DNA of 43,576 bases from Bacteroidales bacterium (GTDB taxonomy: Bacteria > Bacteroidota > Bacteroidia > Bacteroidales > VadinHA17), in NCBI GenBank assembly GCA_003141415.1, contig PLLX01000076.1, positions 1 through 43,576 on the forward strand, read 5' to 3'. The position numbers were made by a program, and so were the translations under genes. A model generated the notes under the pieces. The model saw only the letters and a list, made by a program, of their open reading frames with translations. It was not told where the DNA came from and did no database searches. Every line of letters starts with the position of its first letter. Position 1 is the first letter of the stretch. Positions 14,072-32,192 of the stretch are shown piece by piece.

Positions 14072-15982
14072 ATGAATATTGAACCATATAAACAGATTTT
14101 AACAAAATACTGGGGATTCACCTCATTTAAACCGTTACAGGAAGAGATAATAAGATCTGTTGCTCAAGGAAGGGATACCCTTGGTCTTATGCCAACCGGT
14201 GGTGGAAAGTCCATTACTTTTCAGGTACCTGCTCTCGCGCAGGAGGGAATCTGTCTGGTAATAACTCCTTTGATTGCCCTGATGAAAGATCAGGTAAATC
14301 GTCTTAATGATCTGGAAATAAAATCTATAGCAATACATTCAGGAATGTCCGGTGAAGAGATAGATAATGCTCTTGAAAATTGCATCTTTGGAGATTATAA
14401 GTTCATGTATGTTTCCCCCGAAAGAATTTCGACAAGGATATTTCAGGCTAAGGTAACACGACTTAATCTATCGCTGGTGGCAATAGATGAAGCACATTGT
14501 ATTTCCCAATGGGGATACGACTTCAGACCATCATACCTGAAGATTGCATCACTGAGAGATCATATTTCCGAAAAAGTTCCGTTCCTGGCCCTTACAGCAT
14601 CAGCGACTCCTCAGGTAATTGAGGATATAATGAAGAAGCTGGCCTTCAGGGAAAAGAATGTTCTCAAAACCAGTTTCGACAGGAAAAATATTTCCTACCT
14701 GGTGCGGAAAGTAGAAGAGAAAGGTAATTACCTTATCAAAACCCTGCAAAAAATAAAAGGAAGCGGCATTGTGTACGTCAGAAGCAGAAAAAGATGCAAA
14801 GAGGTTGCCGAACTTTTAGTGGCTAATGGTATAAGTGCCGACTTCTATCACGCCGGATTGACGGATGATCTTCGTGACAAAAAACAAGCATCATGGACAA
14901 TAGGAGAGACCCGCGTAATTATTGCCACGAATGCTTTCGGAATGGGTATCGATAAATCTGAAGTAAGATTCGTAATTCACTGGGATATACCTGATTCTAT
15001 TGAGAGTTATTTTCAGGAGAGCGGAAGGGCCGGCAGGGATGGAAAACCTGCCTTCGCAGTTCTTTTGTACACACCTGCGGACAAAACCCGCCTGAGAGAT
15101 ACAATCAGAAAGAAGTTTCCCCCAATTGAAAAAATCAAAGACACTTACGAGGCATTATGCAATTATCTCCAGGTTCCGCTAGGTTCGGGGAAAGACAATG
15201 TTTTTGATTTCAATATGTATGATTTAGTGGCAAAATACAGGTTGCCGGTTATCGAAACCTATAACAGTCTTCAGTTCCTTCAGAGAGAAGGTTACATGGA
15301 ATTCACCGAAGAAATAAATAATCCTTCAAGGGTACATTTTATTGTCAGTCGCGATGATCTGTATAAATTCCAGGTAGCAAACGAATCATTCGACGGATTT
15401 ATTAAACTTCTTCTGAGATCCTATACCGGGATGTTCAGCGAATTTGTTCCTGTCAATGAAGAAGCGCTTTCCCGAAAATCAGCTGCAACACGCGACACTA
15501 TATATCAATATCTTGTGAAATTGTCCTCATTGAATATTATCCGGTATATTCCCGGTAAAAAGACAGCACTCGTAATTTTTACCGAAGAAAGACTGGTAAG
15601 AAAAGCTTTAATGATCTCACCAGATAATTATCTTCATGTAAAGGAAAAATATGAGATCAGGTTAAATAAAATGATTGAATATGCAGATTCGGACGAACAT
15701 TGCAGGTCAGTATATCTGCTAAATTATTTTGGGGAAGAGTCCGACCGGTGCGGAATCTGTGACGTATGTCGGGAGAGGAATGAGCTGGACCTGAGCAAGT
15801 ATGAATTTGATCTGATTCTTGAAGAGATAAAAAGTATTCTGAGTGAAAGGAATCCTGATGCAGAAGAACTTGTTAAACAGATTGATTATCCCGAAGACAG
15901 GGTCATCAAAGTGATCCGCTGGCTTCTCGACCATAATAAGATAGTTCAGGATAAGGATCATAAGCTTAGCTGGAAATCCTGA
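14072..15982 (+). CDS. recQ: ATP-dependent DNA helicase RecQ
   Basis: A RecQ-family 3'-5' helicase of 636 residues. Motif 0 (F.SFKPLQEEII), Walker A PTGGGKS at 41-47, DEAH at 139-142 followed by CISQWGYDFRPSY, and FQESGRAGRDG (motif VI) are intact. The RQC zinc-binding region shows four cysteines (HC...CGICDVC, about 549-572). A winged-helix segment follows, but there is no obvious C-terminal HRDC domain, so this is a shorter RecQ form. It acts in recombination and fork repair. It is divergent from guaB and convergent with the dehydrogenase gene, the two stop codons lying 6 bases apart. Confidence 0.95.
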   Translation: MNIEPYKQILTKYWGFTSFKPLQEEIIRSVAQGRDTLGLMPTGGGKSITFQVPALAQEGICLVITPLIALMKDQVNRLNDLEIKSIAIHSGMSGEEIDNALENCIFGDYKFMYVSPERISTRIFQAKVTRLNLSLVAIDEAHCISQWGYDFRPSYLKIASLRDHISEKVPFLALTASATPQVIEDIMKKLAFREKNVLKTSFDRKNISYLVRKVEEKGNYLIKTLQKIKGSGIVYVRSRKRCKEVAELLVANGISADFYHAGLTDDLRDKKQASWTIGETRVIIATNAFGMGIDKSEVRFVIHWDIPDSIESYFQESGRAGRDGKPAFAVLLYTPADKTRLRDTIRKKFPPIEKIKDTYEALCNYLQVPLGSGKDNVFDFNMYDLVAKYRLPVIETYNSLQFLQREGYMEFTEEINNPSRVHFIVSRDDLYKFQVANESFDGFIKLLLRSYTGMFSEFVPVNEEALSRKSAATRDTIYQYLVKLSSLNIIRYIPGKKTALVIFTEERLVRKALMISPDNYLHVKEKYEIRLNKMIEYADSDEHCRSVYLLNYFGEESDRCGICDVCRERNELDLSKYEFDLILEEIKSILSERNPDAEELVKQIDYPEDRVIKVIRWLLDHNKIVQDKDHKLSWKS

Positions 15983-15987
15983 ATTTA

Positions 15988-18816
15988 TTATTTTGCCTTT
16001 GGACTGCTTACTCTGTCTACAAGGTAAGCAATCGATTTATAAGATATACCTGTATTCAGACTTAGACCGATCTCACAGGTCCGGCTCGTTGAATATCCAT
16101 TTTTTACAATCTCAGGCACTTGACATTTTACATTGGACAAACCGTGTCTATTCAATTCAGGATAGGTAAAACCACGGTCTCCGGCAAATCCGCAACAATT
16201 TGTTTCTGGTACTATTACCTCTCTGGCGCAAATCCTGGCCAGGTCAGCCAGTTTTCCATCCATCTCCATCTTTTTCATACTGCAGACAGGGAATATAGTA
16301 ATGACTTCATCCACAGGTGTTATAATCAGGTAGGGCAGGAGGTATTCTGTGATAAATTCCACGGGTTCGTAAAGTTTAAGATTTGACTTAAAGTTTTCTT
16401 TCATTGTATACAAACACGGACTCATATCGCAAAGTACAGGATAATTTCCATTTTCACTTGCTTTCAGAAGAGCTGCTTCCAACCCGGCAGATTTTTTTTC
16501 TCCTGATTCCGTATAACCCTTACTTAAGAATGCCATACCGCAACACAAATTATTCAGGTTTTCAGGGTAAATAACATCATATCCTGCTTTTTGCAATAAT
16601 TGAATCATTTTTTCTGAAAGCTGCATCTCTTCTTTGTGATCTATCGAAACACCCATTGACCGGTTTATGCATGATGGAAAATATACAACCTTACGAAGAT
16701 TGACTGAATTCACCTCATTATGTGCCTTAATAGCTCTCGCTCCCTTAGGCATAGATGGGTTCCATGCAGGAATCCTGTTCCCGGATATTCTTCGTAAACT
16801 ATCTGAAACACTTTGCATAACATTGGTACCCAGTATCGTATGGAAAAAGCTGACAATTGAAAGTGCTCTTCTTGCTGCAGCAGTTATCAGACTCATATTA
16901 TTGGCTATCCTTATTGCACGGTTATGCCTCCTTTCAACTTTTTCTGATCGAAGGTTTTTAATAAACTTACCTGTGTCTATTTTAACCGGACAACTTATTG
17001 CACATAGTCCATCGGTAGCGCAGGTCTCATTCCCGGAATAATCAAAAGACTTTGCAAGCGATGCAGCAATATGTGGCTCATGTCCGCTTTTTGAAAGCGA
17101 AACTATTTCCCTGTGGATGACAATTCTTTGACGCGGGGTGAGTGTCAGTCCGGCTGAAACACATGAGGATTCGCAAAAGCCGCATTCAGTGCATTTATCA
17201 ATGATCTCACTGGCAGCCGGAAGAGGCTTCAGGTTCTTCAGGTGAACCTCTTTATCGGAATTCAGAATCACACCCGGATTAAGAATATTCGAAGGATCAA
17301 ATATATGTTTGATTTTCTTCATTAATTTGTAAGCATCCTTTCCCCACTCCATTTCAACAAAGGGTGCCATATTACGTCCGGTTCCATGTTCAGCCTTCAG
17401 TGATCCGTCATATTTATTAATTACCAGCTCTGAGACTTCTGTCATAAGCTTAGCATAACGATCAATCTCTTCCTGTATATTAAAATCCTGTGTGAAAACA
17501 AAATGCAGGTTTCCTTCAAGTGCATGTCCAAAGATCACCGCTTCATCATATCTGAATTTTTTTAAGAGATTTTGAAGGTCAAGTGTAGCTTCTGCTAGTG
17601 ATGCGACCGGAAAAGCAACATCTTCGATAATGACAGTTGTACCGGTTTTTCGCATTGCACCTACTGAGGGAAATAGTCCTTTCCGGATTTTCCACAAGAG
17701 CTCATATTCTGAAGAAATATCGGTAAATGTAACAGCTCTATCTACAGGAATGCTTTTTATGGAATTCTTAATTATTTCAATATTTATATTTATTTCAACT
17801 TTATTTGCACCTACAGTTTCTACCAGTAATGCACATACATTACCCTGAAGCAATTTCAGGAAGTCAGGAATCCCCTTTTCGTTTTCAACCGAGCGCAATC
17901 CGGCCCTGTCAATCAATTCGACTGCGGAAACGGGTGCAGCTTTAAGAAATGATACAGCTTTGCATGCTTTTCCAATATCAGGGAAAATCATGAGTGAGCT
18001 TGCCTTATAAGGATATTCAGTGACTGTTTTGAAACTGATCTCGGCAATAAATCCCAATGTACCTTCCGATCCGATCATAAGGTGTTCAATTATATCGAAA
18101 GGATCGGTGAAATCGATAAGAGCATTAAGGCTGTAACCTGTAGTGTTCTTCATTTTGTACTTATTCCTGATCTTTTCGGCAAGAGATGTATTTTCAACAG
18201 CAGATTTTGCAAGGGTTTCAATATCCGAAAGAAGTTTTGAATGTGATTCCCTGAAGGACTCCTTCCCTGACTTATCTCTTGTATCAAGGATGGTTCCATC
18301 AGCCAGAATAATCTTCATTCCTGCAACAGTTTTATATGAATTCTCTGCTGTACCACAACACATTCCACTTGCATTATTTGCGGCAATTCCTCCAATCATT
18401 GCTGCATTTATCGATGCCGGATCGGGACCAATCTTCCGACCAAATGGAGCAAGAAGTGAATTGACTTGTCCGCCGGTTAATCCTGGTTGGAGGCTTATTT
18501 CAGAACCATTTTCATTAATATGGAATTTTTTCCAGTGACTCCCTGCTATCATTAACACAGAATCGGTTATTGCCTGTCCTGACAGACTCGTTCCGGCAGA
18601 ACGGAATGTTACCGGAATAGAGAGTTCAGAGCTCTCTTTCAATATCAGGGAAACTTCATTTTCATCCAAGGCCCTGATCACAAGCTTCGGGATCAGTCTG
18701 TAAAAACTTGCATCGGTTCCGTATGCCAGGGTATATAAAGGGTCGTGAAAAATCCTTTTCTTATCGATTGATTCAATAAGCCGTTCGAACAGGATTTTGT
18801 ATTTTCCGGTAAGCAT
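15988..18816 (-). CDS. FAD-linked oxidase / Fe-S fusion dehydrogenase (GlcD-GlcF type)
   Basis: A 942-residue fusion. The N-terminal half is a PCMH-type FAD domain (VTFRSAGTSLSGQA, IGGIAANNASGMCCG) with an FAD-oxidase C domain (KAEHGTGRNMAPFVE). The second half carries ferredoxin-like cysteine motifs CTECGFCESSC and CATDGLCAISCPV and two CCG motifs (NNLCCGM, NCCGFAG) that bind Fe-S clusters or couple to quinones. This arrangement occurs in D-lactate, glycolate and 2-hydroxyglutarate dehydrogenases; the substrate is not decidable here. The ATG at 18816 is preferred over the one at 18843 because a -7 box at 18851-18858 would put the transcript start near 18844. Confidence 0.9.
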   Translation of the reverse strand: MLTGKYKILFERLIESIDKKRIFHDPLYTLAYGTDASFYRLIPKLVIRALDENEVSLILKESSELSIPVTFRSAGTSLSGQAITDSVLMIAGSHWKKFHINENGSEISLQPGLTGGQVNSLLAPFGRKIGPDPASINAAMIGGIAANNASGMCCGTAENSYKTVAGMKIILADGTILDTRDKSGKESFRESHSKLLSDIETLAKSAVENTSLAEKIRNKYKMKNTTGYSLNALIDFTDPFDIIEHLMIGSEGTLGFIAEISFKTVTEYPYKASSLMIFPDIGKACKAVSFLKAAPVSAVELIDRAGLRSVENEKGIPDFLKLLQGNVCALLVETVGANKVEININIEIIKNSIKSIPVDRAVTFTDISSEYELLWKIRKGLFPSVGAMRKTGTTVIIEDVAFPVASLAEATLDLQNLLKKFRYDEAVIFGHALEGNLHFVFTQDFNIQEEIDRYAKLMTEVSELVINKYDGSLKAEHGTGRNMAPFVEMEWGKDAYKLMKKIKHIFDPSNILNPGVILNSDKEVHLKNLKPLPAASEIIDKCTECGFCESSCVSAGLTLTPRQRIVIHREIVSLSKSGHEPHIAASLAKSFDYSGNETCATDGLCAISCPVKIDTGKFIKNLRSEKVERRHNRAIRIANNMSLITAAARRALSIVSFFHTILGTNVMQSVSDSLRRISGNRIPAWNPSMPKGARAIKAHNEVNSVNLRKVVYFPSCINRSMGVSIDHKEEMQLSEKMIQLLQKAGYDVIYPENLNNLCCGMAFLSKGYTESGEKKSAGLEAALLKASENGNYPVLCDMSPCLYTMKENFKSNLKLYEPVEFITEYLLPYLIITPVDEVITIFPVCSMKKMEMDGKLADLARICAREVIVPETNCCGFAGDRGFTYPELNRHGLSNVKCQVPEIVKNGYSTSRTCEIGLSLNTGISYKSIAYLVDRVSSPKAK

Positions 18817-18850
18817 AGTGTAAAGCAAAAAAATAAGCCACAAAGGGACT

Positions 18851-18858
18851 CAAAGGTA
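18851..18858 (-). promoter_or_regulatory. Possible -7 box for the FAD/Fe-S dehydrogenase
   Basis: On the minus strand this reads TACCTTTG, a TAnnTTTG match about 35 bases before the chosen ATG at 18816. The -33 position is weak. Confidence 0.35.
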
Positions 18859-18920
18859 TAATCAAATAACCATTTCAGTATTAAAATAGTTTTTTTGATC
18901 AAATCCCCTTTAATTTAAGT

Positions 18921-19006
18921 TGTCCGGGCTGTCGACTTCGTCTGACTAAGGCGACTACATCGGCCGAAATCCGACTGAGTCAGACGAAGCCGACATTAGC
19001 CGGACA
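18921..19006. repeat. 86-base imperfect inverted repeat / hairpin
   Basis: TGTCCGG (18921-18927) pairs with CCGGACA (19000-19006). Inside it the 17-base arm 18931-18947 (GTCGACTTCGTCTGACT) pairs with 18978-18994 (AGTCAGACGAAGCCGAC) at 16 of 17 positions. The loop is about 30 bases. No U-tract follows and no gene reads into it, so a terminator role is unlikely. It may be a transposon end, a recombination site or a folded RNA. Confidence 0.8.
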
Positions 19007-19021
19007 TTCGAATTATTTTAC

Positions 19022-19066
19022 TCTCGAGTGCTACATCACTGGGACTTTGAACAGCTTGCATAAAAC
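19022..19066 (+). repeat. Left copy of spaced island-flanking repeat
   Basis: TCTCGAGT, then 21 unrelated bases, then ACAGCTTGCATA-A-AAC. The same two blocks with exactly the same 21-base spacing occur in the same orientation at 27026-27070 on the other side of the six-gene operon. Confidence 0.7.
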
Positions 19067-19120
19067 GGCCCGGTGGTAGGATTAGTTGCCGTCCGTGTCA
19101 GCCGATGGCGTGGTTTTTGC

Positions 19121-19313
19121 AAAGTCCCGGTAGATGGCCGCATGTTTTCTCGTCACGGCGAAATTGTTCAGTCCCTCAGTATGGGTACATATGGCCCCCA
19201 AAAGAGTAATTTGTTAAAAGATTAAAATTCAACGCTTTAAAAAAGTAGTTACTTAAGAGATGGCGTAGTCCCGGTAGACGACCGCGAGTTGTCCCGTCAC
19301 GGTAAAATTGTCT
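19121..19313 (+). repeat. Two direct copies of an AGTCCCGGTAGATG-like repeat
   Basis: The copy at about 19123-19167 and the copy at about 19267-19312 share AGTCCCGGTAGA-, -CCGC-, -GTT-TC- and -CGTCACGG-, then AAATTGT, with only scattered mismatches over about 45 bases. GATGGCGT precedes both, with an 11-base insertion in the first. A shorter match lies at 26953-26970 beyond the operon. Confidence 0.7.
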
Positions 19314-19748
19314 TGGTGGAGATGCAAAAACCATGACAGCAAGCGCGTTGGCCGGCAGCCCTATTGACTTTGTCTCGGCAACAGGATTAGTCATGGTACA
19401 CAAAATTTTATAAGTTATGAGGTGGCTTCTCGCATAGACTTTAGGGGCTGATTGAGTAGTTGTCCGGGCTGCTGAAGGCAATTATCCATAGCACCATCCG
19501 TGTTATAGGATGGCTTTTATTCCTATCTCAGTACCAGTAATTTGTCTCGTTATAATTCTTTTGTTTATTGTCAAGGCTGATCAAGATTAATGTCATGTTG
19601 CAGGATTAATTTTTAGTCAAGGGAGTGGGGAAAATTTTAAAATTCTATCCTTTCTGGTTTGCAAGCTCTTTGACAAAGCTTTGGTTTTAGTGAAGGCAAG
19701 TGCGGCTTTGGCAATGTGCTTGCAAATAACAATCATTTGAGCCTATAT

Positions 19749-19788
19749 TGAGCCAACTATGAGCCAATTGAGCCAACTATGAGCCAAC
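19749..19788 (+). repeat. 20-base tandem repeat (2 copies)
   Basis: Two adjacent 20-base units built on TGAGCCAACTA-TGAGCCAAT differ at one position (19 of 20 identical). Each unit itself contains two TGAGCCAA blocks. The array ends 22 bases from the stop codon of the AlbA_2 ATPase gene. Confidence 0.85.
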
Positions 19789-19810
19789 TGTATAGAACAG
19801 GAATAGTTAA

Positions 19811-21169
19811 TCATATCAAATCACCATCAATAACATCAGCATAATAAGTTCTAAATAATTCGTAAACAGCACTAGATCCTTTTGTCCCTTTATTATGCAA
19901 CAACTTCTTTTCTTCTAATTCTGACAGATCACGTGATGCTGTGGCTTTTGAAACATTATTTAATTTCTGATAATCACGATTTGAAATTTGTCTCTTTTCT
20001 TTAACATATAAAACCGCTTTGACTTGCCTATCGTTAAGATTAAGTGATTTAAGATATTGCTCATAGAAAATGTCTTTTCGGAACTCCACAAAAAAACCAG
20101 ACATATCATAATAAAAGGATGGTAATGGATTACCTGACATTTCACATTCCTTAATCATTTTCAATGTTCCTCGTCCCCACGATTCTATGTAGCCGCTTCT
20201 GAAAAGGGAATTGGCAATATCCGGATTATAGGGTTTTGATGGATGTTTGGTTAAAAGACTTTCAATTGTCCAATTCTCTGGTAATTGACCTTCATTCCAA
20301 AAAATGATTTTGTCGTTGTAAACACTAATCTGGATGGGAACACCTCCTGAATAGTCTTTGTGAGCAATAGCATTTAACAGGGCTTCACGAACCGCATCTT
20401 TCGGATATTCATATTTTTCGACTCTATTGATACCCTCGTAACTTATTTCGGCTTTGATGTACTTGGTAAAAAGTAAATCCATTGCCTTTTCAATCTGTTC
20501 AAATAGATTACCGTGTATTTCGTCCTGAAATTTCAGGTCATCATCTGTTTCAAAAAAACCAATTTTGATGTATGCTCCGGTTATAAAATTTTCAGGCTTA
20601 GGATGAAATAGTAAAATAGCGGCCCGTTTTAGAAAAGTATTTTCTTTTAATTGAAGGTTTTCAATCAGAAGTTCGTTAGAGTCAGTTAAAACATCTTCTT
20701 CTATACGTTGACTTTTAAGAGCTCTTTTGCGAAAAAAGTCAAAAGTCTCTTGCTTTAATTCTGCTACAGAAATATTTGGTACTGGAACCCCGTCCCATCT
20801 TTTACCTTTTCTTTGCAAAAGGAATTTGTCTAATGCTGCTCCTTTTAATTCCTGCTTGGTAGTTCCGCTCCGGTAATGGTACTGACCTTTGTAATTGACC
20901 GGATAAGGATACTGTTCTACAATTATTTCAATAAAATCACCTTTGGCTGTAGGGTGCAAATTAACATCAACCAATATTCCTAATGTATCCCTCACCTTAT
21001 TGGGAACATCTTCTAATAATCTTTTAGCATTTTCTAAAGGAATAATTTCTCCTGCATCATTCTTCCCAATGAAAAGCCTTCCTCCATTGGCATTTGCAAA
21101 ACCACAAATCCATTTAAGGTATTCATCTTTCCAGGTTTCCTTAAATTCTATGCTTTGATTTTCAGACAT
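19811..21169 (-). CDS. AlbA_2 / Schlafen-like ATP-binding protein with winged helix
   Basis: A 452-residue protein of the AlbA_2 (Slfn) plus HATPase_c_4 architecture. The N-terminus (SIEFKETW...ICGFANANGGRLFIGKNDAG) is the AlbA_2 signature, residues 6-40. The GHKL-like ATP-binding region contains REALLNAIAHKDYS at 261-274, WNEGQLP at 291-297 and YIESWGRGTLKM at 327-338. A C-terminal winged-helix DNA-binding segment lies near 380-435. Such proteins are annotated as transcriptional regulators or are found in defence islands. It is the last gene of the six-gene operon, starting 4 bases after the helicase stop. It could be the operon's regulator or a nucleic-acid-sensing effector. Confidence 0.88.
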   Translation of the reverse strand: MSENQSIEFKETWKDEYLKWICGFANANGGRLFIGKNDAGEIIPLENAKRLLEDVPNKVRDTLGILVDVNLHPTAKGDFIEIIVEQYPYPVNYKGQYHYRSGTTKQELKGAALDKFLLQRKGKRWDGVPVPNISVAELKQETFDFFRKRALKSQRIEEDVLTDSNELLIENLQLKENTFLKRAAILLFHPKPENFITGAYIKIGFFETDDDLKFQDEIHGNLFEQIEKAMDLLFTKYIKAEISYEGINRVEKYEYPKDAVREALLNAIAHKDYSGGVPIQISVYNDKIIFWNEGQLPENWTIESLLTKHPSKPYNPDIANSLFRSGYIESWGRGTLKMIKECEMSGNPLPSFYYDMSGFFVEFRKDIFYEQYLKSLNLNDRQVKAVLYVKEKRQISNRDYQKLNNVSKATASRDLSELEEKKLLHNKGTKGSSAVYELFRTYYADVIDGDLI

Positions 21170-21173
21170 ATGG

Positions 21174-23312
21174 CTATTTTAATAGTTTATTATAATACCG
21201 GTTTCGCTGTTTGAACATTTTGTCAAAATAATCAATTTTTGAATCCCTGTAATCGAAAATTACAGGTGGTTTTCCCGAACGTTGGATTCGGCCAATATAT
21301 TGAATCAATTTCCCTTCAAAGGCAAATGGGTAAACGATAAAAAGGCATTCTAAACTATCAAGATCAATACCTTCTCCGAAGTATTGTCCTGTTGAAATTG
21401 CAATTTTGTAATGACCTTGTTTTAATTGTTCCAATTTACTCTTCCGGCTTTTTTCGGAATCATCCCCATAAATGGAGATCGTCTCATATTTGTCTTTAAG
21501 GTAAAGGTTCAATATCTCTACATGGGCTTTTCGCTCAGTGAGAACTAAAACTGATTTAAAACGGCCAATATTATTTTCCAGGTCTTTAATTATAAGAGAA
21601 TTACGCTGAGTATCATGAATCAAAATCCGTGAAATTGTTTCGTATTTATCGATTTTGTAATCAAATGGAGCATAAAGGTCTGTTACCCTGATATTAATCT
21701 CAACTTTAGTTTGGTTTTTTTTAATCTGATTTATCTGATTAGCATTGTATAAAATATTCCCGATATAAACATATATAAGTTTTTCGTCATTATTCTTGCG
21801 TTTTGGAGTAGCTGTCAAACCATACAAATAGAATGAATTGAAGTTAACAATTGCCTCCCTGAATGATTTTGCTGGTATATGATGACATTCATCAATTATA
21901 ATAGTTCCAAAACAATCAGATATTTTATCGATTTCATCGTTCCGGGCAAGAGATTGAATCATCGCAACAGTTATCTTTTTGCCAACTTTAAACTTCTGAT
22001 TGCCAATCTGGCCAATCTCTTTTTTGGAGATTTTAAGGAAACTCTGTATCCGGTCAATCCATTGATCAAACAATTGTTTCCGATGAACAATGATTAAGGC
22101 TGGTTGTTGTTTTTGCGAAATAATTTCAAGGCCGATGATAGTTTTACCTGAACCGGGAGGAGAAACAATTACTCCAAAATCTTTGTCTAAAGTCTTTTCG
22201 ATAGCTAATTCCTGATGTGGCAGCAATTCAATTTCCGAATCAAAATCTATGAAATCAAGCTTCTTACGATTATCAATAATCTTGAACGAAAGGTTTTCAT
22301 GCTTGCAGAAACTGACAAGTGTAGCAACAAAACCTCTGGGGATAATTACCCCATCTGAAGTTTCTTCAATTAACCTGAAATATTTTTCAAGGTTATAAGT
22401 TGCTCTACCCATGTTTTTTTTAACCAGATAATCTAAATTAAGAAAGTTCAGATTATCACGGAGAAATTCGATAAGTTTTTTGTTTAGCTGCAAACGTTTA
22501 AGGTAAATCAGTCTGTCAATTTGTATTTCAACTTCATTATGAAAATCTGAGGAAAAATTTGATTTCATGAACTCCTGTGGTTTCTGGTCAAAGAAGTTTT
22601 CATACAGAATCAGAAAATTTGCTTTTGATAGTCTTCGAAAGCTTCTTATCGCTTCAAATTGATCAACAAATGCTTCAGAAGTATCTGGATTTAAGAATGT
22701 GGAATTGTTTTTCTGAAGAGCTTTCCCGTTTAAAGGTAATGCAATCAGGTTCCCAAGTCCCTTGCCTGTATGGAAATCCTGATTGGGAAATAACCTGTCA
22801 AAACTTGGTTCTTTCTCGAAGGGTGAAATAATTGAAGCCTCTCTTAATAGTTCAAACAATAATTTCCTGGTTTGCTCTGCCGGAAGGATTTCTTCGAAGA
22901 AAACCCATAGATGTCCACCATTACCAGAACGGGAACGTTCAATATATGAAGGTATATCGTATTTAATACAAGTTGAATATAACTTAAAAATAGATTCTTT
23001 CCAATTTTCATCGTCAAAATCGGCCGCAATAAAATGTGAGGTATTATCTTCTAAAAGCGGATAAATTCCAACTGTCTCGCTTCCCTCAAAATGTCGAAGA
23101 ATTACTTCATTGGTAAAAGGAAGGTATTCTTTCTTAGAATAATCCTTAAATGTTCCTCCTTTAGCTATGTGCTCCTTGTAATCACTCCAATCAACCTTGT
23201 AAGCAGGCATATAACCACTTTTGCCGTCTTTTTCCCAATAAGTAGCAAATACATACTGCCTGCCATAGAAAAGGGACTTGAAAAAGTTTATATTGTCTGA
23301 TTCGAAATTCAT
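21174..23312 (-). CDS. TOTE-type archaeo-eukaryotic primase fused to SF2 helicase
   Basis: The 712-residue protein starts with a primase domain of the TOTE conflict-system type: metal-binding DFD at 98-100 within HFIAADFDDENW, the SRSGNGGHLWVFF strand at 127-139, FDRLFPNQD near 171-179 and GLGNLIALPL at 185-194. A linker leads to an SF2 helicase with Walker A PPGSGKT at 385-391, DECHH at 474-478, LTATPKR at 499-505 and QYIGRIQRSG at 671-680. The frame ends soon after motif VI, so no C-terminal nuclease or other effector domain is present. The start overlaps the methyltransferase stop (ATGA), implying translational coupling. A defensive role is inferred from family and neighbours. Confidence 0.87.
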   Translation of the reverse strand: MNFESDNINFFKSLFYGRQYVFATYWEKDGKSGYMPAYKVDWSDYKEHIAKGGTFKDYSKKEYLPFTNEVILRHFEGSETVGIYPLLEDNTSHFIAADFDDENWKESIFKLYSTCIKYDIPSYIERSRSGNGGHLWVFFEEILPAEQTRKLLFELLREASIISPFEKEPSFDRLFPNQDFHTGKGLGNLIALPLNGKALQKNNSTFLNPDTSEAFVDQFEAIRSFRRLSKANFLILYENFFDQKPQEFMKSNFSSDFHNEVEIQIDRLIYLKRLQLNKKLIEFLRDNLNFLNLDYLVKKNMGRATYNLEKYFRLIEETSDGVIIPRGFVATLVSFCKHENLSFKIIDNRKKLDFIDFDSEIELLPHQELAIEKTLDKDFGVIVSPPGSGKTIIGLEIISQKQQPALIIVHRKQLFDQWIDRIQSFLKISKKEIGQIGNQKFKVGKKITVAMIQSLARNDEIDKISDCFGTIIIDECHHIPAKSFREAIVNFNSFYLYGLTATPKRKNNDEKLIYVYIGNILYNANQINQIKKNQTKVEINIRVTDLYAPFDYKIDKYETISRILIHDTQRNSLIIKDLENNIGRFKSVLVLTERKAHVEILNLYLKDKYETISIYGDDSEKSRKSKLEQLKQGHYKIAISTGQYFGEGIDLDSLECLFIVYPFAFEGKLIQYIGRIQRSGKPPVIFDYRDSKIDYFDKMFKQRNRYYNKLLK

Positions 23313-25393
23313 TTCTTTATTTCGGAGCTGTCAATTATTATTTCATCTCCTGAGATGTTTCTGATTTTCATTTTGAATTTGTCAGTTGTCAGTTTGTAAA
23401 CAGCTTTGATCTTCTCTTTCACTCCTGCTTTATCTTCCAGATCAGGATTGCTTGTCCAAACTCCATCTTCGCGAAGCGCTGTGTCGAATTGTACTGCTTC
23501 AATTAACTCAAGTCCACTTTCGCTGATTTGAATTTTCGGTTTACCATTTGGTTTTTCTTCTTCGTTACCATTTCCATTCTCTCCATTTTCATCCAGAGTT
23601 TTTTGTTTTGGTTTTACTTTCTTGTTGTTGAAGTCGTCAATTTTATTTTTAAGATAACTGCTGAAATATTTTTTGATTTCAACAATCCGGAGTTTTCCTT
23701 CATGTTTGATCTCAATAACAGCATTGTCTGGTGTGTAAAGCACATCAGCTTTTTGTGAAAGCAATTCATCTAAAGAAACCAGCTCTGCCTTTATGCCTGA
23801 CTTTTTAGTTTGCCTGATCGTTTTATTCACATAATCCTGATTCACCTCTTGTTGTTTGTATGCGTAAATTATTTTTACGTCAGGGATTTTATTTTCTATT
23901 CCGCTATCCGTTTTAATATCTTCCTGGTTGATTTCTTCAAGTCCTATGACTTCTTCAATAATCACATCGACTAATTCCTTTGTGAGCTTCCTGTCAATAC
24001 CAATGAACTTTACCGGTGTAAATGTTCCCCGTTTGTTTATCATACCTCCGTCCCAAAATTCTCCCAAGCCCAATTCTGCCCTGTCTTTATATCCATCGAG
24101 CAGACTGAAAAGTTTTGCAACAGTTTGAACCGGGTTACGGAACAAACTAACGCCATCGTTGATTTTTAAAGTATCAAACTCTGCTTTTGCCTTTACAAGG
24201 CGATCTCTTGTTGTTTGAATGGCATTGATCCCAATATCGCATGCAATAAATTTCTTTCCTAAATCATTCGCCATTTTTACGGTTACACCGCTTACGCAAA
24301 AGAAATCGGCAATTACAAAATCACCAGTAGAACCACTAGTGTTGATTATTCTTTCAAGCAATTCTTCGCTCTTTTCAGTGGAGTAATCATTGCCGAATGA
24401 ATAGGCAGGTATATCATCCCAGAGAGAATCACATAATGTTTCATCTGATGCTGGAATGAAATATTCCGGTTTAAATGTCTTACTGTGTTTTCTGATAAAA
24501 TCTTTTTTCTCCCCGGTTTCTTGCCAAAAGTCAGTAAGCGTTTTTTTGTCAGAATGATTTTTTAGCCAATCATCATAATTTTTAATAGCAGTTTTTGTTT
24601 TTTCTAATTCCCATCTCAAATGATTATTTGAAGCCGGATAAAAACCAAATAATTCATAGTCCATTCCATTTCTAAATCCTGATGCTTCAAATGAATGCCA
24701 TCTCTCATCTTTTTCCTCTTCCTTGGTCGGTGGTAAGTATTTTATTTCATCATGTATTGCATAAACGAAGATCATATCAGTCGCATTATTCAATGATTTA
24801 ACCAACTCTCTTTCTCTAACATTCTTTTTAATTCTCTTTACAATAATTTCATTCCTAAAATTTTCTTCTCCGAAAACTTCATCCAACAACATTTTTACAT
24901 AATGCCCTATGTGCCAGTCAAGATGCACATAGATGCTCGAATTGATACTCATCACATCTTTGATAGCAAGTAATCTTTCATAAAGCCAGTTCAAATAATC
25001 TTCCTTTTGCCAAATATCACTATACATTATTTCTTCACCTATTTCATTTGCACTATTCTCAAATGCAGCTTTACCGTTGCCTGTTCTCAGATTAATTTTC
25101 TTAGCATAGTTAGCTCCGCTGGCAAACGGAGGGTCAATATAAACTAGATCAACTTTTATATTTTCGCTTTTCAGGTAAGCACAAGCGCTCAGGCAATCAC
25201 CATGAATAAGAAGGTTCTGGAAATCGACATTGAGTTCGGAGTCCATTTTTAATTTCTTTTGTCCACTCTGACGCACCTCTTCCGTTACTTTTGTTTCAAA
25301 TAACTCAATCTTTTCAGGCAATCTTCGACCCTGGAAATTTAAAAGGGCTTGTCCTTTGGCTGGTTCAATTGTATAATTAACTGGTTTCTTCAT
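23309..25393 (-). CDS. DNA methyltransferase, type III Mod-like (beta class)
   Basis: A 694-residue amino-methyltransferase with the catalytic motif DPPF at 87-90 preceding the SAM-binding motif, the beta-class order found in type III Mod and related enzymes. YDI/SDIWQKEDYLNWLYERL, IYVHLDWHIGHYVK and the middle recognition region fit this family. Motif I reads DFFCVSGVT (363-371) where DFF(A/C)GSGTT is expected, so a glycine and a threonine of the SAM loop are both valine. Residues 400-694 form a long extension with a low-complexity Asn/Glu/Lys stretch near 600-620. Its start overlaps the preceding small gene by 17 bases. Probable role: protective modification in the island's system, if still active. 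Confidence 0.87.
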   Translation of the reverse strand: MKKPVNYTIEPAKGQALLNFQGRRLPEKIELFETKVTEEVRQSGQKKLKMDSELNVDFQNLLIHGDCLSACAYLKSENIKVDLVYIDPPFASGANYAKKINLRTGNGKAAFENSANEIGEEIMYSDIWQKEDYLNWLYERLLAIKDVMSINSSIYVHLDWHIGHYVKMLLDEVFGEENFRNEIIVKRIKKNVRERELVKSLNNATDMIFVYAIHDEIKYLPPTKEEEKDERWHSFEASGFRNGMDYELFGFYPASNNHLRWELEKTKTAIKNYDDWLKNHSDKKTLTDFWQETGEKKDFIRKHSKTFKPEYFIPASDETLCDSLWDDIPAYSFGNDYSTEKSEELLERIINTSGSTGDFVIADFFCVSGVTVKMANDLGKKFIACDIGINAIQTTRDRLVKAKAEFDTLKINDGVSLFRNPVQTVAKLFSLLDGYKDRAELGLGEFWDGGMINKRGTFTPVKFIGIDRKLTKELVDVIIEEVIGLEEINQEDIKTDSGIENKIPDVKIIYAYKQQEVNQDYVNKTIRQTKKSGIKAELVSLDELLSQKADVLYTPDNAVIEIKHEGKLRIVEIKKYFSSYLKNKIDDFNNKKVKPKQKTLDENGENGNGNEEEKPNGKPKIQISESGLELIEAVQFDTALREDGVWTSNPDLEDKAGVKEKIKAVYKLTTDKFKMKIRNISGDEIIIDSSEIKK

Positions 25394-25817
25394 CTTTGTA
25401 TGGTATGTTTATGACTCTGGCTGTTTCCAATAATTCCTTAATTCGTTTCGGGGTGAATTTAAAAGTTCTTCCATCATCTTTGCAATATGCCGTTATGGGA
25501 TATTTAGGCCTGGAAGTAAAAAGCCCGGTAATTGTAAAAATATAACCGTCTAAAAGAAACTCACTTCCGATGAAGTCGGGTGGTAATCCGTGTACCGATG
25601 CAAAAAAAATTGATTCGTTCAGTTCATAGTTTTCAGTTACAGGATTCTGTACTTTTCCGATTATTTTTGCAGTGAAAGAAGATAAATCAAAACGGATACC
25701 GCCAAGTGAGAGTTGAGAAAGCCCGTACTTTGATTTGATCTCATCAAATGCTGATTGAATTTCCTTTCTTAAAATGGTCACCTCCCGGGGACCTAATTGG
25801 TTAATATTGATTCCCAT
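25377..25817 (-). CDS. Small protein of unknown function, phage-like
   Basis: A 146-residue protein I cannot assign to a named family. Its second half has the pattern G-(4)-F-x-I-x-G-L-x-x-x-R-x-K-Y-P-I, then D-D-G-R-T-F-K-F-T and a terminal K-x-L-L helix. From memory this resembles small hypothetical proteins carried by phages and other mobile elements; that recollection is unverified. The N-terminal helix (VTILRKEIQSAFDEIKSKYGL) leads into a beta-rich body. It lies between the SEC-C gene and the methyltransferase, overlapping the latter's start by 17 bases, so it is an integral part of the operon. Confidence 0.7.
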   Translation of the reverse strand: MGININQLGPREVTILRKEIQSAFDEIKSKYGLSQLSLGGIRFDLSSFTAKIIGKVQNPVTENYELNESIFFASVHGLPPDFIGSEFLLDGYIFTITGLFTSRPKYPITAYCKDDGRTFKFTPKRIKELLETARVINIPYKDEETS

Positions 25818-25827
25818 AAATATTGAG

Positions 25828-26088
25828 TTATATCAAACAACAATGTTTATACTTTTTCCCGCTGCCGCAGGGACAGGGTTCGTTTCTCCCAATAGTTATT
25901 GTTTTGGTTATTGGTTTGGGTGGAGTTAATAAACGTTCAACATCCGAAATATCTTCGGGTTTATCTGGTTCAATACCGACTATAACCTGCCAATTATTTT
26001 CATTGCATAATTTCATAATCTCCTCTGCACGTTCCATTGTTTCTACGTGAACAATTGCCGGTTTTTCTTTTGATCCAAGTTTTGCCAT
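25828..26088 (-). CDS. SEC-C motif small protein (PBPRA1643-like)
   Basis: An 86-residue protein ending in the zinc-binding SEC-C motif [13 protein letters not shown] (about 72-84), the same module found at the C-terminus of SecA. The body ([46 protein letters not shown]) is like the small SWIM/SEC-C proteins named PBPRA1643 family. It starts 1 base after the stop of the preceding gene. Function is unknown; as part of this operon it could be a zinc-dependent adaptor for the DNA-acting proteins. Confidence 0.82.
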
Positions 26089-26089
26089 G

Positions 26090-26779
26090 TTAAAAAGCCT
26101 TAATTATTTTTTTAAGTTCAGCCAAATGTTTGCTAAAATCATTTCCCCCTTCGTCAACAAAACACAAATATTCAAAGTTCGGGTTGTATTTTTTGAAAGT
26201 AGTTTTTACAAATTGTTCTTTTTGCTGAAATTCCGGTGTGTAATAAGGTTTGCCCTTGGTTTCAATCATCAGCGCTTTTTCAATAGTTCCCTTTTGTTTA
26301 TCTGATGCAAACTCATTTTGTGTTTTATATGTTTTTACTGCACCCATTGGCAAACTGAACAAGTAATTTGGGTATTCAAAATCGTGAAGCAATTCATTCA
26401 AAACCTCATTCCAATTATGGATCAGGCCTTTAGGGTCGTTCAATAATTCTTTCTGAAGGTTTTTAAGTTCATTGTCCTGTGCAAAAGCATTTAGAAATTG
26501 CAGAGTATAATTATCTCCGAATACCTGATTATATTGATATTCTGCAACTTTGTTTGGATTAAACAACAAGCCTGAACGAATAATATCGGAAAGTTCTTTA
26601 TTCTGACCAACAAATTTTAACCAGAGATAAGTTTCAATTGATTTGAGTTGGGGTTCCCGAAGTTTGCCCTGCTTTTCAATATATTTAATGATATTCCCAA
26701 TAGCCGATTGGTTATCTTCCCGCTGCTCCTTAATCCAGGTTTCTGTTTTATTTTCAATAAGATCAAATATTGTTAGCAT
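26090..26779 (-). pseudogene. Probable internally deleted DEAD/DEAH helicase-nuclease (restriction subunit relic)
   Basis: The 229-residue frame opens like the N-terminal region of large type III-like DEAD/DEAH restriction helicases: LTIFDLIENKTETWI, then LREPQLKSIETYLWLKFV (40-57), which resembles the segment before the motor. At 141-150 it reads FSLPMGAVKT, where MGAGKT (Walker A) would be expected. Immediately after, the sequence switches to EKALMIETKGKPYY (167-180), which looks like an E-x-K nuclease strand near the C-terminus of such enzymes. The simplest reading is an in-frame loss of the whole motor. It is the operon's first gene. It could instead be a genuine short nuclease; confidence applies to the homology. 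Confidence 0.6.
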
Positions 26780-26806
26780 TTCTTACTATTTCAAAAAATA
26801 ATCAAT

Positions 26807-26814
26807 CAAAAATA
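26807..26814 (-). promoter_or_regulatory. Candidate -7 box of the six-gene island operon
   Basis: On the minus strand this reads TATTTTTG, a TAnnTTTG match. It would start transcription near 26800, about 20 bases before the ATG at 26779. No good TTG -33 box is seen, so the promoter may be weak or activated. Confidence 0.4.
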
Positions 26815-26850
26815 CTATAATATTTCTGTCCTTTAAGTGCGTTGGTAAAA

Positions 26851-26915
26851 TTTGGCTCTTTTGATTTTGCATTGTGATTAGGCTAGTGCGTAAGGGCAAA
26901 AGCAAATGCGCCAAA
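26851..26915. repeat. 18-base inverted repeat upstream of the island operon
   Basis: TTTGGCTCTTTTGATTTT (26851-26868) pairs with AAAAGCAAATGCGCCAAA (26898-26915) at 15 of 18 positions with a 29-base spacer. It lies just upstream of the candidate promoter, so it could be an operator or a mobile-element end. Confidence 0.55.
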
Positions 26916-26952
26916 TGTGGGCTAACAGAATTTTAAATTTTTTACGCGAGGG

Positions 26953-26970
26953 CAAAGTCCCGATAGATGA
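26953..26970 (+). repeat. Right-flank copy of the AGTCCCGGTAGATG-like motif
   Basis: GCAAAGTCCCGATAGATG matches GCAAAGTCCCGGTAGATG at 19119-19136 at 17 of 18 positions and in the same orientation, nearly 8 kb apart on opposite sides of the operon. Confidence 0.6.
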
Positions 26971-27025
26971 GTAAGAATTAAATGTCAAGACAAAAGTTTG
27001 TTAAGTGTGTAAATCCAACAAATTG

Positions 27026-27070
27026 TCTCGAGTAGAAAAGCTGTCAGGTCGCATACAGCTTGCATACAAC
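27026..27070 (+). repeat. Right copy of spaced island-flanking repeat
   Basis: TCTCGAGT, 21 unrelated bases, then ACAGCTTGCATA-C-AAC: the same blocks, spacing and orientation as at 19022-19066. Confidence 0.7.
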
Positions 27071-27279
27071 TCTTTAATTGCGTTAATAAAACTACATTTT
27101 AAAATCGAAGGCGTATCAGATATGATTATGTTATTTTCTTATATCTGACAAATTCTTTTCTCACATAACGAATTTAAACAGAGATTATTTAACAACAAGT
27201 GGCTCAGGGATGAAGTTTGCCACATTAAGTTGAACACACTCTGATCTGATATGCGTTTCTTTTACCTGTCAAATTTTAT

Positions 27280-27287
27280 TACTTTTG
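27280..27287 (+). promoter_or_regulatory. Possible -7 box for the DUF5063 gene
   Basis: TACTTTTG fits TAnnTTTG but lacks a clear -33 partner. It would give a leader of about 125 bases containing the hairpin CCTG-GCGATTT / AAATCGC-CAGG (27329-27361). Confidence 0.2.
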
Positions 27288-27419
27288 GCACCTGGCAGAT
27301 TAAATTTGATTCCTTGCCTGTCAGACGACCTGGCGATTTTATTAAAAAAATCGCTAACAGGCTTAAAATAAGGAAGTAAATTGATTAATATTAATTGCGG
27401 CACAACTTAATTAAGTGTT

Positions 27420-28043
27420 ATGGATACCAATTCAGTTCCGGTATATTCAAGAAATGTTGTTGAATTTGTTGCTGTAGCAAATGAATTCTGCAAATATGCA
27501 GAACATGCTTCGGAACTTAAAGGTGATGAGCTGCTGAAGATACTGCAACGAATTCTGCCTCTAATGTACCTTAAAGCTTCTCTTTTACCGCAATTAGATC
27601 CTTTCTTTGAAGATGGTAATGAAAAATTCGTTACTGAAGCTGATTGGACTATTATTAATAATACTCTTCAGGAAAAGTTTGGAACCGCAAACGACTATCT
27701 CGAGGTGTTCGATGAAAAAATAAATGAAACGGAAGGGCCGATCGTATCAAGTATTTCTGAAAATATGGCTGATATCTACCAGGATATGAAGGACTTCCTT
27801 CTTCTATACCAGACAGGTACCGTAGAGGTAATGAATGACGCCGTATGGGAATGCAGAACGAACTTTGAAAATTTCTGGGGTCAGAAACTTGTAAATTCGA
27901 TGAGGGCCGTTCATAAGTTCATCTACTCGGGTGAGGAGATTGGAAAGATTGAAAAAGAGAATGATGCAGATGATGAAAACAGAAACACTGCCAACTGGTT
28001 TATAACAAGAAGACAAAAAGATTTAAGAGGAGAAAGTGAATAA
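27420..28043 (+). CDS. DUF5063 domain-containing protein
   Basis: A 207-residue, mostly helical acidic protein without signal peptide or membrane segment. The pattern FVAVANEFCKYAEHASELKGDELLKILQRILPLMYLKASLLPQL fits DUF5063 as I remember it, a family of unknown function in Bacteroidota. The stop overlaps the in-frame GTG of the following exonuclease and lies 2 bases before its ATG, so the pair is co-transcribed. The neighbour suggests a role in nucleic-acid metabolism, but this is only context. Confidence 0.82.
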   Translation: MDTNSVPVYSRNVVEFVAVANEFCKYAEHASELKGDELLKILQRILPLMYLKASLLPQLDPFFEDGNEKFVTEADWTIINNTLQEKFGTANDYLEVFDEKINETEGPIVSSISENMADIYQDMKDFLLLYQTGTVEVMNDAVWECRTNFENFWGQKLVNSMRAVHKFIYSGEEIGKIEKENDADDENRNTANWFITRRQKDLRGESE

Positions 28044-28044
28044 T

Positions 28045-28626
28045 ATGTATAAGGAGAATATTACAGTTGAGGAACTGGCGCAACATGAACTCTCATGGTT
28101 TAAGGGGGAAATAGTATTAGTAGACAATCTTAGAACATTTTATGAGGTCTTTCCAAGGCTTCTGCGATCCGACCTGCTGGGTTTTGATACAGAGACGAGG
28201 CCCACTTTCAAAAAAGGCAAGAAAAATTCAGTGTCACTTATCCAGCTTTCGACAGGAGACCTGGCATGTCTGTTCCGAATAAATAAAATAGGAATCCCTA
28301 ATGAATTGACTGATCTGTTATCAGATCCTTCCATTATAAAAGCCGGTGTAGCGGTACATGATGACATAAGGTTTTTAAAAGGGATAAGGAAGTTTTCCCC
28401 TGACGGATTCATCGATCTGCAGACGCTCGTTAAAGATTTTGGTATTCAGAGCTCAGGGTTGAAAAAACTGGCTGCTATAATCCTTGGATTCAGGATATCC
28501 AAACGTCAGCAGGTCACCGACTGGGAGGCAGAACAGCTTACTGAGGCACAACAGATATATGCAGCAACTGATGCGTGGGTTTGTTATCAGATTTATGAAA
28601 AGCTTGTAAATGGATATGAGGTTTAA
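28045..28626 (+). CDS. RNase D-like 3'-5' exonuclease (DEDDy)
   Basis: A 193-residue stand-alone DEDD exonuclease domain. Exo I is LLGFDTETRP, with the two metal ligands D and E; Exo II is AGVAVHDDIRFL; Exo III is YAATDAWVCYQIYEKL, with Asp and a Y-type spacing. There is no HRDC domain, so it is shorter than E. coli RNase D and resembles the small Bacteroidota proteins of this group. An AGGAG at 28028-28032 sits 12 bases before the ATG at 28045 but only 3 before the GTG at 28036, so the ATG is chosen. It could trim RNA or DNA 3' ends. Confidence 0.9.
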   Translation: MYKENITVEELAQHELSWFKGEIVLVDNLRTFYEVFPRLLRSDLLGFDTETRPTFKKGKKNSVSLIQLSTGDLACLFRINKIGIPNELTDLLSDPSIIKAGVAVHDDIRFLKGIRKFSPDGFIDLQTLVKDFGIQSSGLKKLAAIILGFRISKRQQVTDWEAEQLTEAQQIYAATDAWVCYQIYEKLVNGYEV

Positions 28627-28810
28627 GAAGAAAGATAAAAGATAAAAGTAAAAAGACAAAAGTAAAAAGGTAAACCAAATAATTCCCCTCCAAGAGGGGA
28701 GAAGGGTGGATTTAAGATGATTACAAAATCTAAAAACTGACACAGAGAAACCTGAGAAAAACTACCTGATTAAGCCCCCCAGGGAGGGATGGGGGTAAAA
28801 ATAATAGAAA
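28627..28810 (+). repeat. Dispersed intergenic repeat cluster
   Basis: An oligopurine tract built from AAGATAAAAG/TAAAAAGACAAAAG units (28627-28670) is followed by a short hairpin CCCCTC-CAA-GAGGGG (28685-28699), a CACAGAGAAA fragment (28741-28750) and a C/G-run element (28774-28797). Similar pieces occur at 33900-34166 (inverted), 36655-36690 and 37755-37880. Confidence 0.6.
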
Positions 28811-28816
28811 CAAGTA

Positions 28817-30001
28817 ATGCAAGAACGAGTTAAGATAGTTCTGAAATCCGGCAAAGAGCAATCCATCCGCCGTTTCCATCCCTGGATATTCTCGGGTGCA
28901 ATCAAGAAAATGTATGGTAGTCCTGTCGAAGGAGATATTGTGGATGTTTACGATAATAAAGATACGTTTCTTGCAGTAGGTCATTATCAGCCCAGCTCAA
29001 TTGCAGTAAGGATACTATCATTTATACAGGAAACACCTGATATTAATTTTTTCAGGGAAAAGATAAAACGTGCTATAAGTTACAGGAGAGCCATTGGCAT
29101 TATTGATAACGCTCAGGTAAATGTTTTCAGACTTATTCATGGTGAAGGAGATGGTTTACCGGGTCTGATAGTTGATTATTATAATGGCATAGCAGTTATG
29201 CAGATGCATTCAATAGGTTTTTACAGGATCAGGAAGGAGATAGCATCTATCCTTGCTGAACTCCTTAATGACCGGATCATTGCTGTCTATGATAAAAGTG
29301 AAGGTACAATTCCCCATATGTCGGGCATTACAGCTAAAAATGAATTTCTTTTCGGAAATTCCGATCCGGTTATTGTCACGGAAAACGGGTATAAATTTAA
29401 AATTGACTGGACAACAGGGCAGAAAACCGGTTTCTTCATTGACCAGAGAGAGAACAGGAAACTTCTCGAAAAATATACCGAAAGAAGAACAGTATTGAAT
29501 ATGTTCGGTTACACCGGCGGATTTTCAGTTTACGCTATGAAAAATGCAGCCGTTGTTCATACTGTTGACAGTTCTTACCCGGCTATTGAACTTGCAAACG
29601 AAAATATTAAAATCAATTATGGCGAGGATAAGAGGCATGAATCATTCCAGGTTGATGCATTTGATTATATGAATCATATCAAAGATCAGTACGACCTGAT
29701 TATACTCGATCCTCCCGCATTTGCAAAGCATAATAATGTTCTGGCAAATGCTTTACAAGGCTATAAAAGACTGAATATAAAGGCAATTGAGCAGATTAAA
29801 CCGGGTGGTATAATTTTTACTTTCTCCTGTTCGCAGGTTGTCACAAGAGAAAATTTCAGGAAATCGGTCTTTGCCGCCGCTGCCAATACCGGTCGTAGTG
29901 TCAGGATTTTACATCAGATGAGTCAGCCACCCGATCATCCTGTAAATATTTATCACCCCGAAAGCGAATATCTGAAAGGTCTGGTTATTTATGTTGAATA
30001 A
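28817..30001 (+). CDS. Class I SAM-dependent rRNA methyltransferase, RlmI-like
   Basis: A 394-residue protein with an N-terminal PUA-like domain (HPWIFSGAIKKMYGSPVEGDIVDVYD) and an RlmI/YccW-type methyltransferase. The core shows the family segments GQKTGFFIDQRENR, VLNMFGYTGGFSVYA (SAM motif I) and VDSSYPAIELA, the catalytic DPPAFAK motif and CSQVVT. RlmI methylates cytosine 1962 of 23S rRNA in E. coli; the same position is plausible but not provable here. Its end overlaps the upstream-most ATG of tex by 11 bases, so the two are likely one operon. Confidence 0.93.
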   Translation: MQERVKIVLKSGKEQSIRRFHPWIFSGAIKKMYGSPVEGDIVDVYDNKDTFLAVGHYQPSSIAVRILSFIQETPDINFFREKIKRAISYRRAIGIIDNAQVNVFRLIHGEGDGLPGLIVDYYNGIAVMQMHSIGFYRIRKEIASILAELLNDRIIAVYDKSEGTIPHMSGITAKNEFLFGNSDPVIVTENGYKFKIDWTTGQKTGFFIDQRENRKLLEKYTERRTVLNMFGYTGGFSVYAMKNAAVVHTVDSSYPAIELANENIKINYGEDKRHESFQVDAFDYMNHIKDQYDLIILDPPAFAKHNNVLANALQGYKRLNIKAIEQIKPGGIIFTFSCSQVVTRENFRKSVFAAAANTGRSVRILHQMSQPPDHPVNIYHPESEYLKGLVIYVE

Positions 30002-30008
30002 TATCACT

Positions 30009-32150: not shown

Positions 32151-32162
32151 GTAATGAAAACG

Positions 32163-32192
32163 TGCAGGGACTGGTCGCAACCAGTCCCTGCA
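32163..32192. terminator. Strong hairpin terminator between tex and the M28 peptidase
   Basis: TGCAGGGACTGGT (32163-32175) pairs perfectly over 13 bases with ACCAGTCCCTGCA (32180-32192), with a 4-base loop. T-rich sequence follows on the plus strand and ACGTTTTC on the minus strand, so it can serve both convergent genes. Confidence 0.85.

Follow-up and report, generated by a model that had tools for sequence, protein, structure and literature searches.

Gene content of the cluster

We examined six closely spaced genes, here called g1 to g6, in 43,576 nucleotides of DNA from a Bacteroidales bacterium (assembly GCA_003141415.1, contig PLLX01000076.1, positions 1 to 43,576); this whole stretch is the window, and all positions are given in it. 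The source genome (G000) is a draft, 81.75% complete and in 279 contigs, and the locus lies on a contig of 52585 bases (C243). An earlier note, made from the letters of the sequence, had described six minus-strand frames with successive gaps of 1, 10 and 4 bases and overlaps of 17 and 4 bases, and had suggested that a methylase, a TOTE primase-helicase, an AlbA_2 ATPase, a SEC-C protein and an unknown small protein might form a new or rearranged defence system that couples modification to a primase-helicase. The frames, their coordinates and their spacing are as described there, and profile matches uphold the methylase, TOTE primase-helicase, AlbA_2 ATPase and SEC-C domain calls. The genes, in the order of reading, are as follows.

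26090-26779, minus strand: g1, 229 residues, what is left of a type III res gene, its two ends fused in frame
25828-26088, minus strand: g2, 86 residues, SEC-C zinc-motif protein of the TIGR04102 (PBPRA1643) family
25377-25817, minus strand: g3, 146 residues, without family assignment
23309-25393, minus strand: g4, 694 residues, type III Mod-like DNA methylase (N6_N4_Mtase, PF01555, 5e-28)
21174-23312, minus strand: g5, 712 residues, AEP-TOTE primase with an XPB-like superfamily 2 (SF2) helicase (AEP-TOTE, ResIII, Helicase_C)
19811-21169, minus strand: g6, 452 residues, SLFN_AlbA_2 and HATPase_c_4 domains and a weak C-terminal helix-turn-helix (HTH) match

Single-gene profiles of PADLOC matched g2, g4, g5 and g6, the matches being to methylases, PrimPol and, in part only, to mREase_IV, PbeA, pAgo, CARF-type and SEC-C-bearing families; the same search gave no match to g1 or g3.

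The restriction half of a type III system

The unknown small protein of the earlier note is g1, for which we found no usable match in Pfam, PADLOC, NCBIfam or PHROGs. It proves to consist of the two ends of a broken res gene, fused together. Both ends match, in order, one intact Res protein (locus L182; the match was first seen with L039), which carries PF04851 ResIII and PF19778 RE_endonuc and is encoded 21 bases upstream of a relative of g4. The blastp E-values below are for a small local database.

26327-26779, minus strand: g1 residues 1-151, Res N-terminus as far as an altered Walker A (MGAVKTY); matches L182 Res 19-169 (72%, 3e-71)
26090-26311, minus strand: g1 residues 157-229, Res C-terminus with the nuclease E-x-K (LMIETKG) present and the PD part deleted; matches L182 Res 877-949 (66%, 6e-29)

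Between these ends about 700 residues are missing in frame, from Walker A to a linker directly past the YTPDFL nuclease motif. Because the deletion spans this interval, the g1 product has neither a helicase nor a complete nuclease site: the Res homology stops after MGAVKTY, so that no SF2 helicase is present, and the PD aspartate is lost while the ExK half is kept. Walker A reads MGAGKTY in nine of 10 aligned relatives and MGAGKTF in the tenth. At the join, to judge from the relatives, the GKTY of Walker A would have resembled a K-x-Y linker. One account of type III enzymes (PMC8259958) lists AdoMet (S-adenosylmethionine) motif I, motif IV (DPPY/F), Walker A and B and PD-(D/E)xK among their conserved features.

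A scan of genome contigs with g4, in a collection described as 84,980 species, gave 37 loci of methylase relatives. Gene content in these and other loci was compared by blastp (E <= 0.01 or 0.001). Many of the stretches stop early at a contig boundary, and the open reading frame script omits overlapping frames, so that short genes may be missed and absences are to be read as lower bounds. In 28 of the 37 loci the g4 relative has a full-length Res (frames of 928-1047 residues) upstream of it, and none of the 28 has the deletion seen in g1. The other nine comprise five near a contig start (L185, L187, L200, L202, L203), two in which Res is interrupted (L189, L209) and two with no Res match (L195, L207). 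The arrangement in the relatives is res upstream of mod, adjoining or one or two genes apart, and g1 and g4 likewise share a strand, with g2 and g3 between. Among 395 genomes of the phylum, g1 had one match apart from that in its source genome; it lies where a large Res-type helicase frame, interrupted by stops, begins, and both ends of g1 align with the protein. A reading of g1 as a new family is ruled out, both ends matching Res; to judge from these matches, g1 is the dead restriction half of the system. Two intact members of this Res group, those of L182 and L196, were tried against PADLOC and gave no match at E <= 0.001.

The modification half

The nearest solved chains to g4 include Mbo45V and the EcoP15I Mod. 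Motif IV of g4 (D87-P88-P89-F90) is intact and precedes motif I (around 363-371), and motif IV before motif I is the order of the beta class of N6/N4 amino-methylases. Motif order is given as distinguishing the methylase classes in part of PMC3036652. One codon in motif I departs from the family.

24293-24295, minus strand: g4 codon 367, where Val replaces the first Gly in the AdoMet motif FxGxG

Glycine stands at this position in 35 of 35 aligned relatives, and the FxGxG motif of g4 is thus not intact. The alignments excluded frames of 350 residues or fewer and contained 32 full-length rows, g4 included. Methylation by g4 may possibly be impaired, weak or gone. The gene has no long simple-sequence repeat tract, its only repeats being of 7- and 10-base units in 2.3 and 2 copies.

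The 37 loci include Bacteroidota, Scalindua, Spirochaeta, Patescibacteria, Clostridiales, Deltaproteobacteria, Elusimicrobiota and a contig filed under Altiarchaeales. Mod is split in two of them (L201, L209) and partial in four (L189, L205, L208, L218). At the L201 locus, of Pedobacter segetis (9821-11848), Mod lies in three frames after a full-length Res, a sign of decay elsewhere in the g4 family. What lies between res and mod differs from locus to locus: an AAA ATPase (L196), RhuM (L201), a nucleotidyltransferase (L203), a HepT-like gene (L208) and, in L213, an AlbA_2-like gene found by blastp to g6. A scan of viral contigs with the methylase alignment gave at least 80 loci, the best 38% identical to g4, while a scan of them with the single g4 protein found nothing. 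The six genes were compared with those viral loci and 12 more; a gene-by-gene reading covered L090 and L093. On L090 (4750-11907, a viral-collection contig), a Mod 38% identical to g4, a Res-like helicase-nuclease and a 732-residue Argonaute-like gene are consecutive, the last two being labelled by eye.

A ruined counterpart in a congener

A 1.3-kb stretch of another genome of the genus (G755) maps in order onto the window at 27063-26522 (93%), 26134-25675 (90%), 23469-23358 (90%) and 19999-19717 (84%). These pieces correspond to the N-terminal end of g1, the C-terminal end of g1 with an intact g2 and the start of g3, the 3' end of g4, and the 3' end of g6. Because the remnants are collinear at 84-93% identity, we take it from the alignment that the arrangement in this congener was formerly much like that of the window. 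Its res is cut to a 100-residue frame by an in-frame deletion different from that in the window. One base past this stub, as in the window, g2 follows at 93% identity, and it alone of the set is intact there. On this contig mod is a 112-base scrap, g6 is also a scrap and none of the pieces is from g5; a g5-like fragment (48%, blastp) lies on another contig of the genome. This decayed remnant is the only other trace of the set in our sample.

The primase-helicase and AlbA_2 pair

In g5 the AEP-TOTE domain is complete (PF22548, 1.4e-75; the name is that of the Pfam description) and is followed by an SF2 helicase. The AEP and helicase catalytic motifs that were checked are all intact, and three of 179 invariant columns are altered in a set of 13 sequences that drew on 12 of the 22 g5-like loci viewed. 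With our own Nei-Gojobori script, the ratio of non-synonymous to synonymous substitution rates (dN/dS) of g5 is 0.106 against G784 and 0.100 against G758, and that of g6 is 0.161 against G784. Both genes are intact and under purifying selection.

The 22 g5-like loci were viewed in sets of 13, 6 and 3, the first set being taken from 25 further genomes in which g5 had a match. Seven of the 22 include a g6-like gene or fragment, and one of the 37 methylase loci has a g6-like gene (L213, between Res and Mod). Among the matches listed are G784, where g5 (91% identity) and g6 (86%) are separated by 4 bases as in the window and have a resolvase and split type I HsdR genes as neighbours, and G761, where the two stand at 75% and 77%. 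In G761 the frames overlap by 8 bases, and the three upstream neighbours scanned are metabolic, none being a restriction-modification (R-M) gene. In G758, g5 (92%) is followed after a 4-base gap by a 24-residue stub of g6 and preceded by an AAA_15/AAA_21 ATPase and a DUF4276 gene. A 46% relative of g6 adjoins a type I HsdR in G202. Plasmid records with g5 relatives number 94, and in 85 of them the cover is 80% or more; three plasmid neighbourhoods showed no annotated methylase or restriction gene in a gene table that is incomplete, and the one on an A. lwoffii plasmid holds another helicase, a HipA toxin and an "ATP-binding protein". Viral matches to g5 span the primase part only. A literature search for TOTE found nothing, which has no bearing on what is in print about it. 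From these neighbourhoods, g5 and g6 are most likely a separately mobile, selected pair that recurs without a g4-type methylase.

The SEC-C gene and the orphan gene

The g2 protein scores 85.5 bits against the curated TIGR04102 cut-off of 68. Near-complete TIGR04102 proteins are found in four of 58 genomes of the genus, three above the cut-off and one, in G767, below it at 62.7 bits; two of the four loci are that of the window and its ruin in G755. The G767 locus (L299, 1264-7582) encodes on one strand, in order, a SEC-C protein (49% to g2), a type III Mod, a Res-like helicase and an AlbA_2 and HATPase_c_4 protein (28% to g6). PADLOC places this Mod in MTase_III (1e-67) and the helicase in REase_III. 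Since the Mod is only 23% like g4, the operon is not a simple descendant of the window type, and its R-M genes are non-orthologous. One part of the earlier proposal remains in a weaker form, SEC-C, type III R-M and AlbA_2 occurring together again but with a different R-M core. For the fourth copy, in G794, blastp found nothing like g4, g6 or Res within 5.4 kb. On Vibrio and Pseudoalteromonas replicons, four TIGR04102 genes were viewed and none has an R-M gene annotated nearby; one of the four, in Vibrio sp. HDW18 (L357, 5920-8961), has a retron St85 system and a short integrase gene in its vicinity. Neither blastp nor pattern search found SEC-C in any of the 37 methylase loci. A literature search on SEC-C gave nothing evidently relevant. 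We regard the relevance of the SEC-C gene to type III R-M as possible but unproven, and the G767 pattern as suggesting, without proving, that it has an accessory role.

The remaining gene, g3, is found in one of 395 genomes of the class, that of the window itself. Its distant homologues are on alphaproteobacterial, mostly rhizobial, plasmids and adjoin a "recombinase family protein" in two of four neighbourhoods viewed; plasmid, phage and viral searches and a single-sequence fold (mean confidence, pLDDT, 36) gave no function for g3.

The insertion site

The cluster lies between an FAD-oxidase gene and a DUF5063 gene. These two adjoin directly, with the cluster absent, in three of 12 stretches viewed from the genus (L252, L253, L258), and an island-free version of the site is present in G737, G736 and G731; in L251 the pair is separated by two other genes. 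For these reasons we take the cluster to be an insertion at a variable site. The grouping exceeds chance, since island-free flank pairs exist and the 4-base spacing of g5 and g6 is repeated in G784. The G+C content of the locus is 34.7%, below that of positions 1-18900 (38.2%) and 27400-43576 (39.1%). Dispersed repeats of about 70-260 bases and 72-91% identity, with many copies in the genus among the matches listed, lie on both sides of the island.

19258-19507, no strand: left-flank dispersed repeat, genus-wide, from sequence matches; a second repeated stretch is at 19064-19171
26850-27045, no strand: right-flank dispersed repeat, from sequence matches

Rfam gave nothing at gathering scores within 18800-27460. 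The left repeat folds no better than shuffles (z 0.81); the right flank, as DNA, folds slightly better (z -1.88, with 11 of 200 shuffles equally good). A small tandem array of TGAGCCAACTA-type units lies at 19736-19789, immediately downstream of g6.

Interpretation

We read the locus, with a probability of roughly 0.78, as a decaying, accreted type III R-M island with working passengers and not as a new six-part defence system. A type III res-mod core would have been inserted between the FAD-oxidase and DUF5063 genes, with the SEC-C gene g2 and the orphan g3 coming to sit between res and mod and the mobile g5-g6 module behind mod. Restriction would have been lost through the in-frame res deletion of some 700 codons, and methylation may be weak or gone. 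The part still worth keeping would be g5 and g6, perhaps a self-standing nucleic-acid surveillance pair: going by their domains, g5 might prime and unwind foreign DNA, while g6 might bind nucleic acid through AlbA_2, its ATPase-like and HTH-like parts acting as a regulator. The proposal of a composite defence locus survives in that the locus is of defence type, has a type III-like methylase core and is composite; what falls away is the new six-gene system.

Several observations weigh against this reading. The methylase is still a full open frame with motif IV in place, and its 5 deviations at 101 otherwise invariant columns put it third among the 32 rows, exceeded by L191 (7/103) and L192 (7/102); within a closer group of 12 it is second (12/185) after L191 (15/188). 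The case for decay of mod therefore rests mainly on G367V, which could be a base error in the draft. The res deletions in G000 and G755 are both in frame, which decay alone does not need (the chance is about 1 in 9), and the first 86 codons of g1 have a dN/dS of 0.095 against G755, a value from just 5 synonymous and 2 non-synonymous changes. The g1 junction, too, is known from the draft assembly sequence alone. Should the deletion be an assembly or consensus error, the real operon would be an intact type III R-M system with cargo. The state of the draft leaves some room for this, but the inferred homology at the join, of some three codons, would probably not suffice to mislead an assembler, g1 remains in frame and G755 has another res deletion at the same locus; we think such an error highly unlikely.

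The retention of a 694-residue open mod frame after in-frame loss of res would also suit an orphan epigenetic methylase that still modifies DNA and regulates genes. There is a precedent in N. gonorrhoeae, for which inactivating res mutations, a 250-residue in-frame res deletion and a proposed regulatory role of mod are described in part of PMC2667262. Set against it are G367V at a position where all 35 relatives have glycine, the lack of long simple repeats in mod, which removes a phase switch of that kind, and the 112-base scrap that is all of mod on the G755 contig, and we consider this role rather unlikely. A somewhat better, still small, chance attaches to a real accessory type III architecture, with SEC-C in front, R-M in the middle and AlbA_2/HATPase at the end, where the accessory proteins would control the R-M or serve as its backup; such an architecture is compatible with the decaying island that we favour. 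The gene order in G767 (whose Mod is so unlike g4), the AlbA_2 gene between Res and Mod in L213 and the survival of g2 as the sole intact gene of the set in G755 point that way. On the other side, SEC-C is in 0 of 37 methylase loci, the Vibrio and Pseudoalteromonas copies of TIGR04102 that were viewed (by annotation) and the G794 copy (by blastp in 5.4 kb) lack such company, and just three SEC-C loci stand beside type III R-M, all in one genus and two of them the same locus. As a speculation that we would not press, this architecture may recur in the genus, SEC-C being retained together with an in-frame Res stub once restriction is lost, with the in-frame res deletions of G000 and G755 selected and the pair of Res stub and SEC-C having its own function, in an island that swaps R-M cores and has gained a TOTE primase-helicase. 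Least probable of all, we believe, is that the six genes act jointly as a new defence system coupling modification to a primase-helicase. Their tight spacing and the collinear G755 remnant, by which most of the arrangement was once in a second genome (with no g5 among the pieces on that contig), speak for it. The gene-neighbourhood check proposed in the earlier note went the other way: by blastp, none of the 37 methylase loci has g5 and none of the 22 g5 loci viewed has a g4-like methylase, and g3 is confined to one genome of 395 in the class. In addition, g1 is a broken gene, and g5 relatives are spread over 94 plasmids, where the three neighbourhoods viewed lack annotated methylase or restriction genes, within the limits of that table.

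On the favoured reading of a decaying island, an apparent six-part novelty becomes a concrete case of defence-island assembly and rot, in which the core would die by in-frame deletion while independent cargo stays selected. The analysis further brings out a group of Res proteins missed by the PADLOC models (two members tested), indicates that the res-mod slot takes up varied cargo, and offers the TOTE-AlbA_2 pair as a testable unit.

Comparison with known systems

Like the type III R-M systems EcoP15I and Mbo45V, g4 has DPPF before FxGxG, and the ends of g1 match a Res with ResIII and RE_endonuc; unlike them, the Res of the window has no helicase and half a nuclease site, the Mod has Val in its AdoMet motif, and two genes lie between. 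The restriction-dead type III systems with phase-variable mod genes of Neisseria and Haemophilus, as far as PMC2667262 describes them in part, are similar in that res is lost in frame or inactivated and mod is kept, whereas the mod of the window has no simple-sequence repeat tract and has an altered motif I. With the AEP-TOTE primase-helicases g5 shares the whole domain followed by an SF2 helicase, but it has no Pfam nuclease domain, and several relatives are about 1000 residues long with an extra C-terminal part. Finally, g6 has both domains of the SLFN_AlbA_2 and HATPase_c_4 proteins and differs from them in its position directly behind the TOTE gene, in the window as in G784, G761 and, as a stub, G758.

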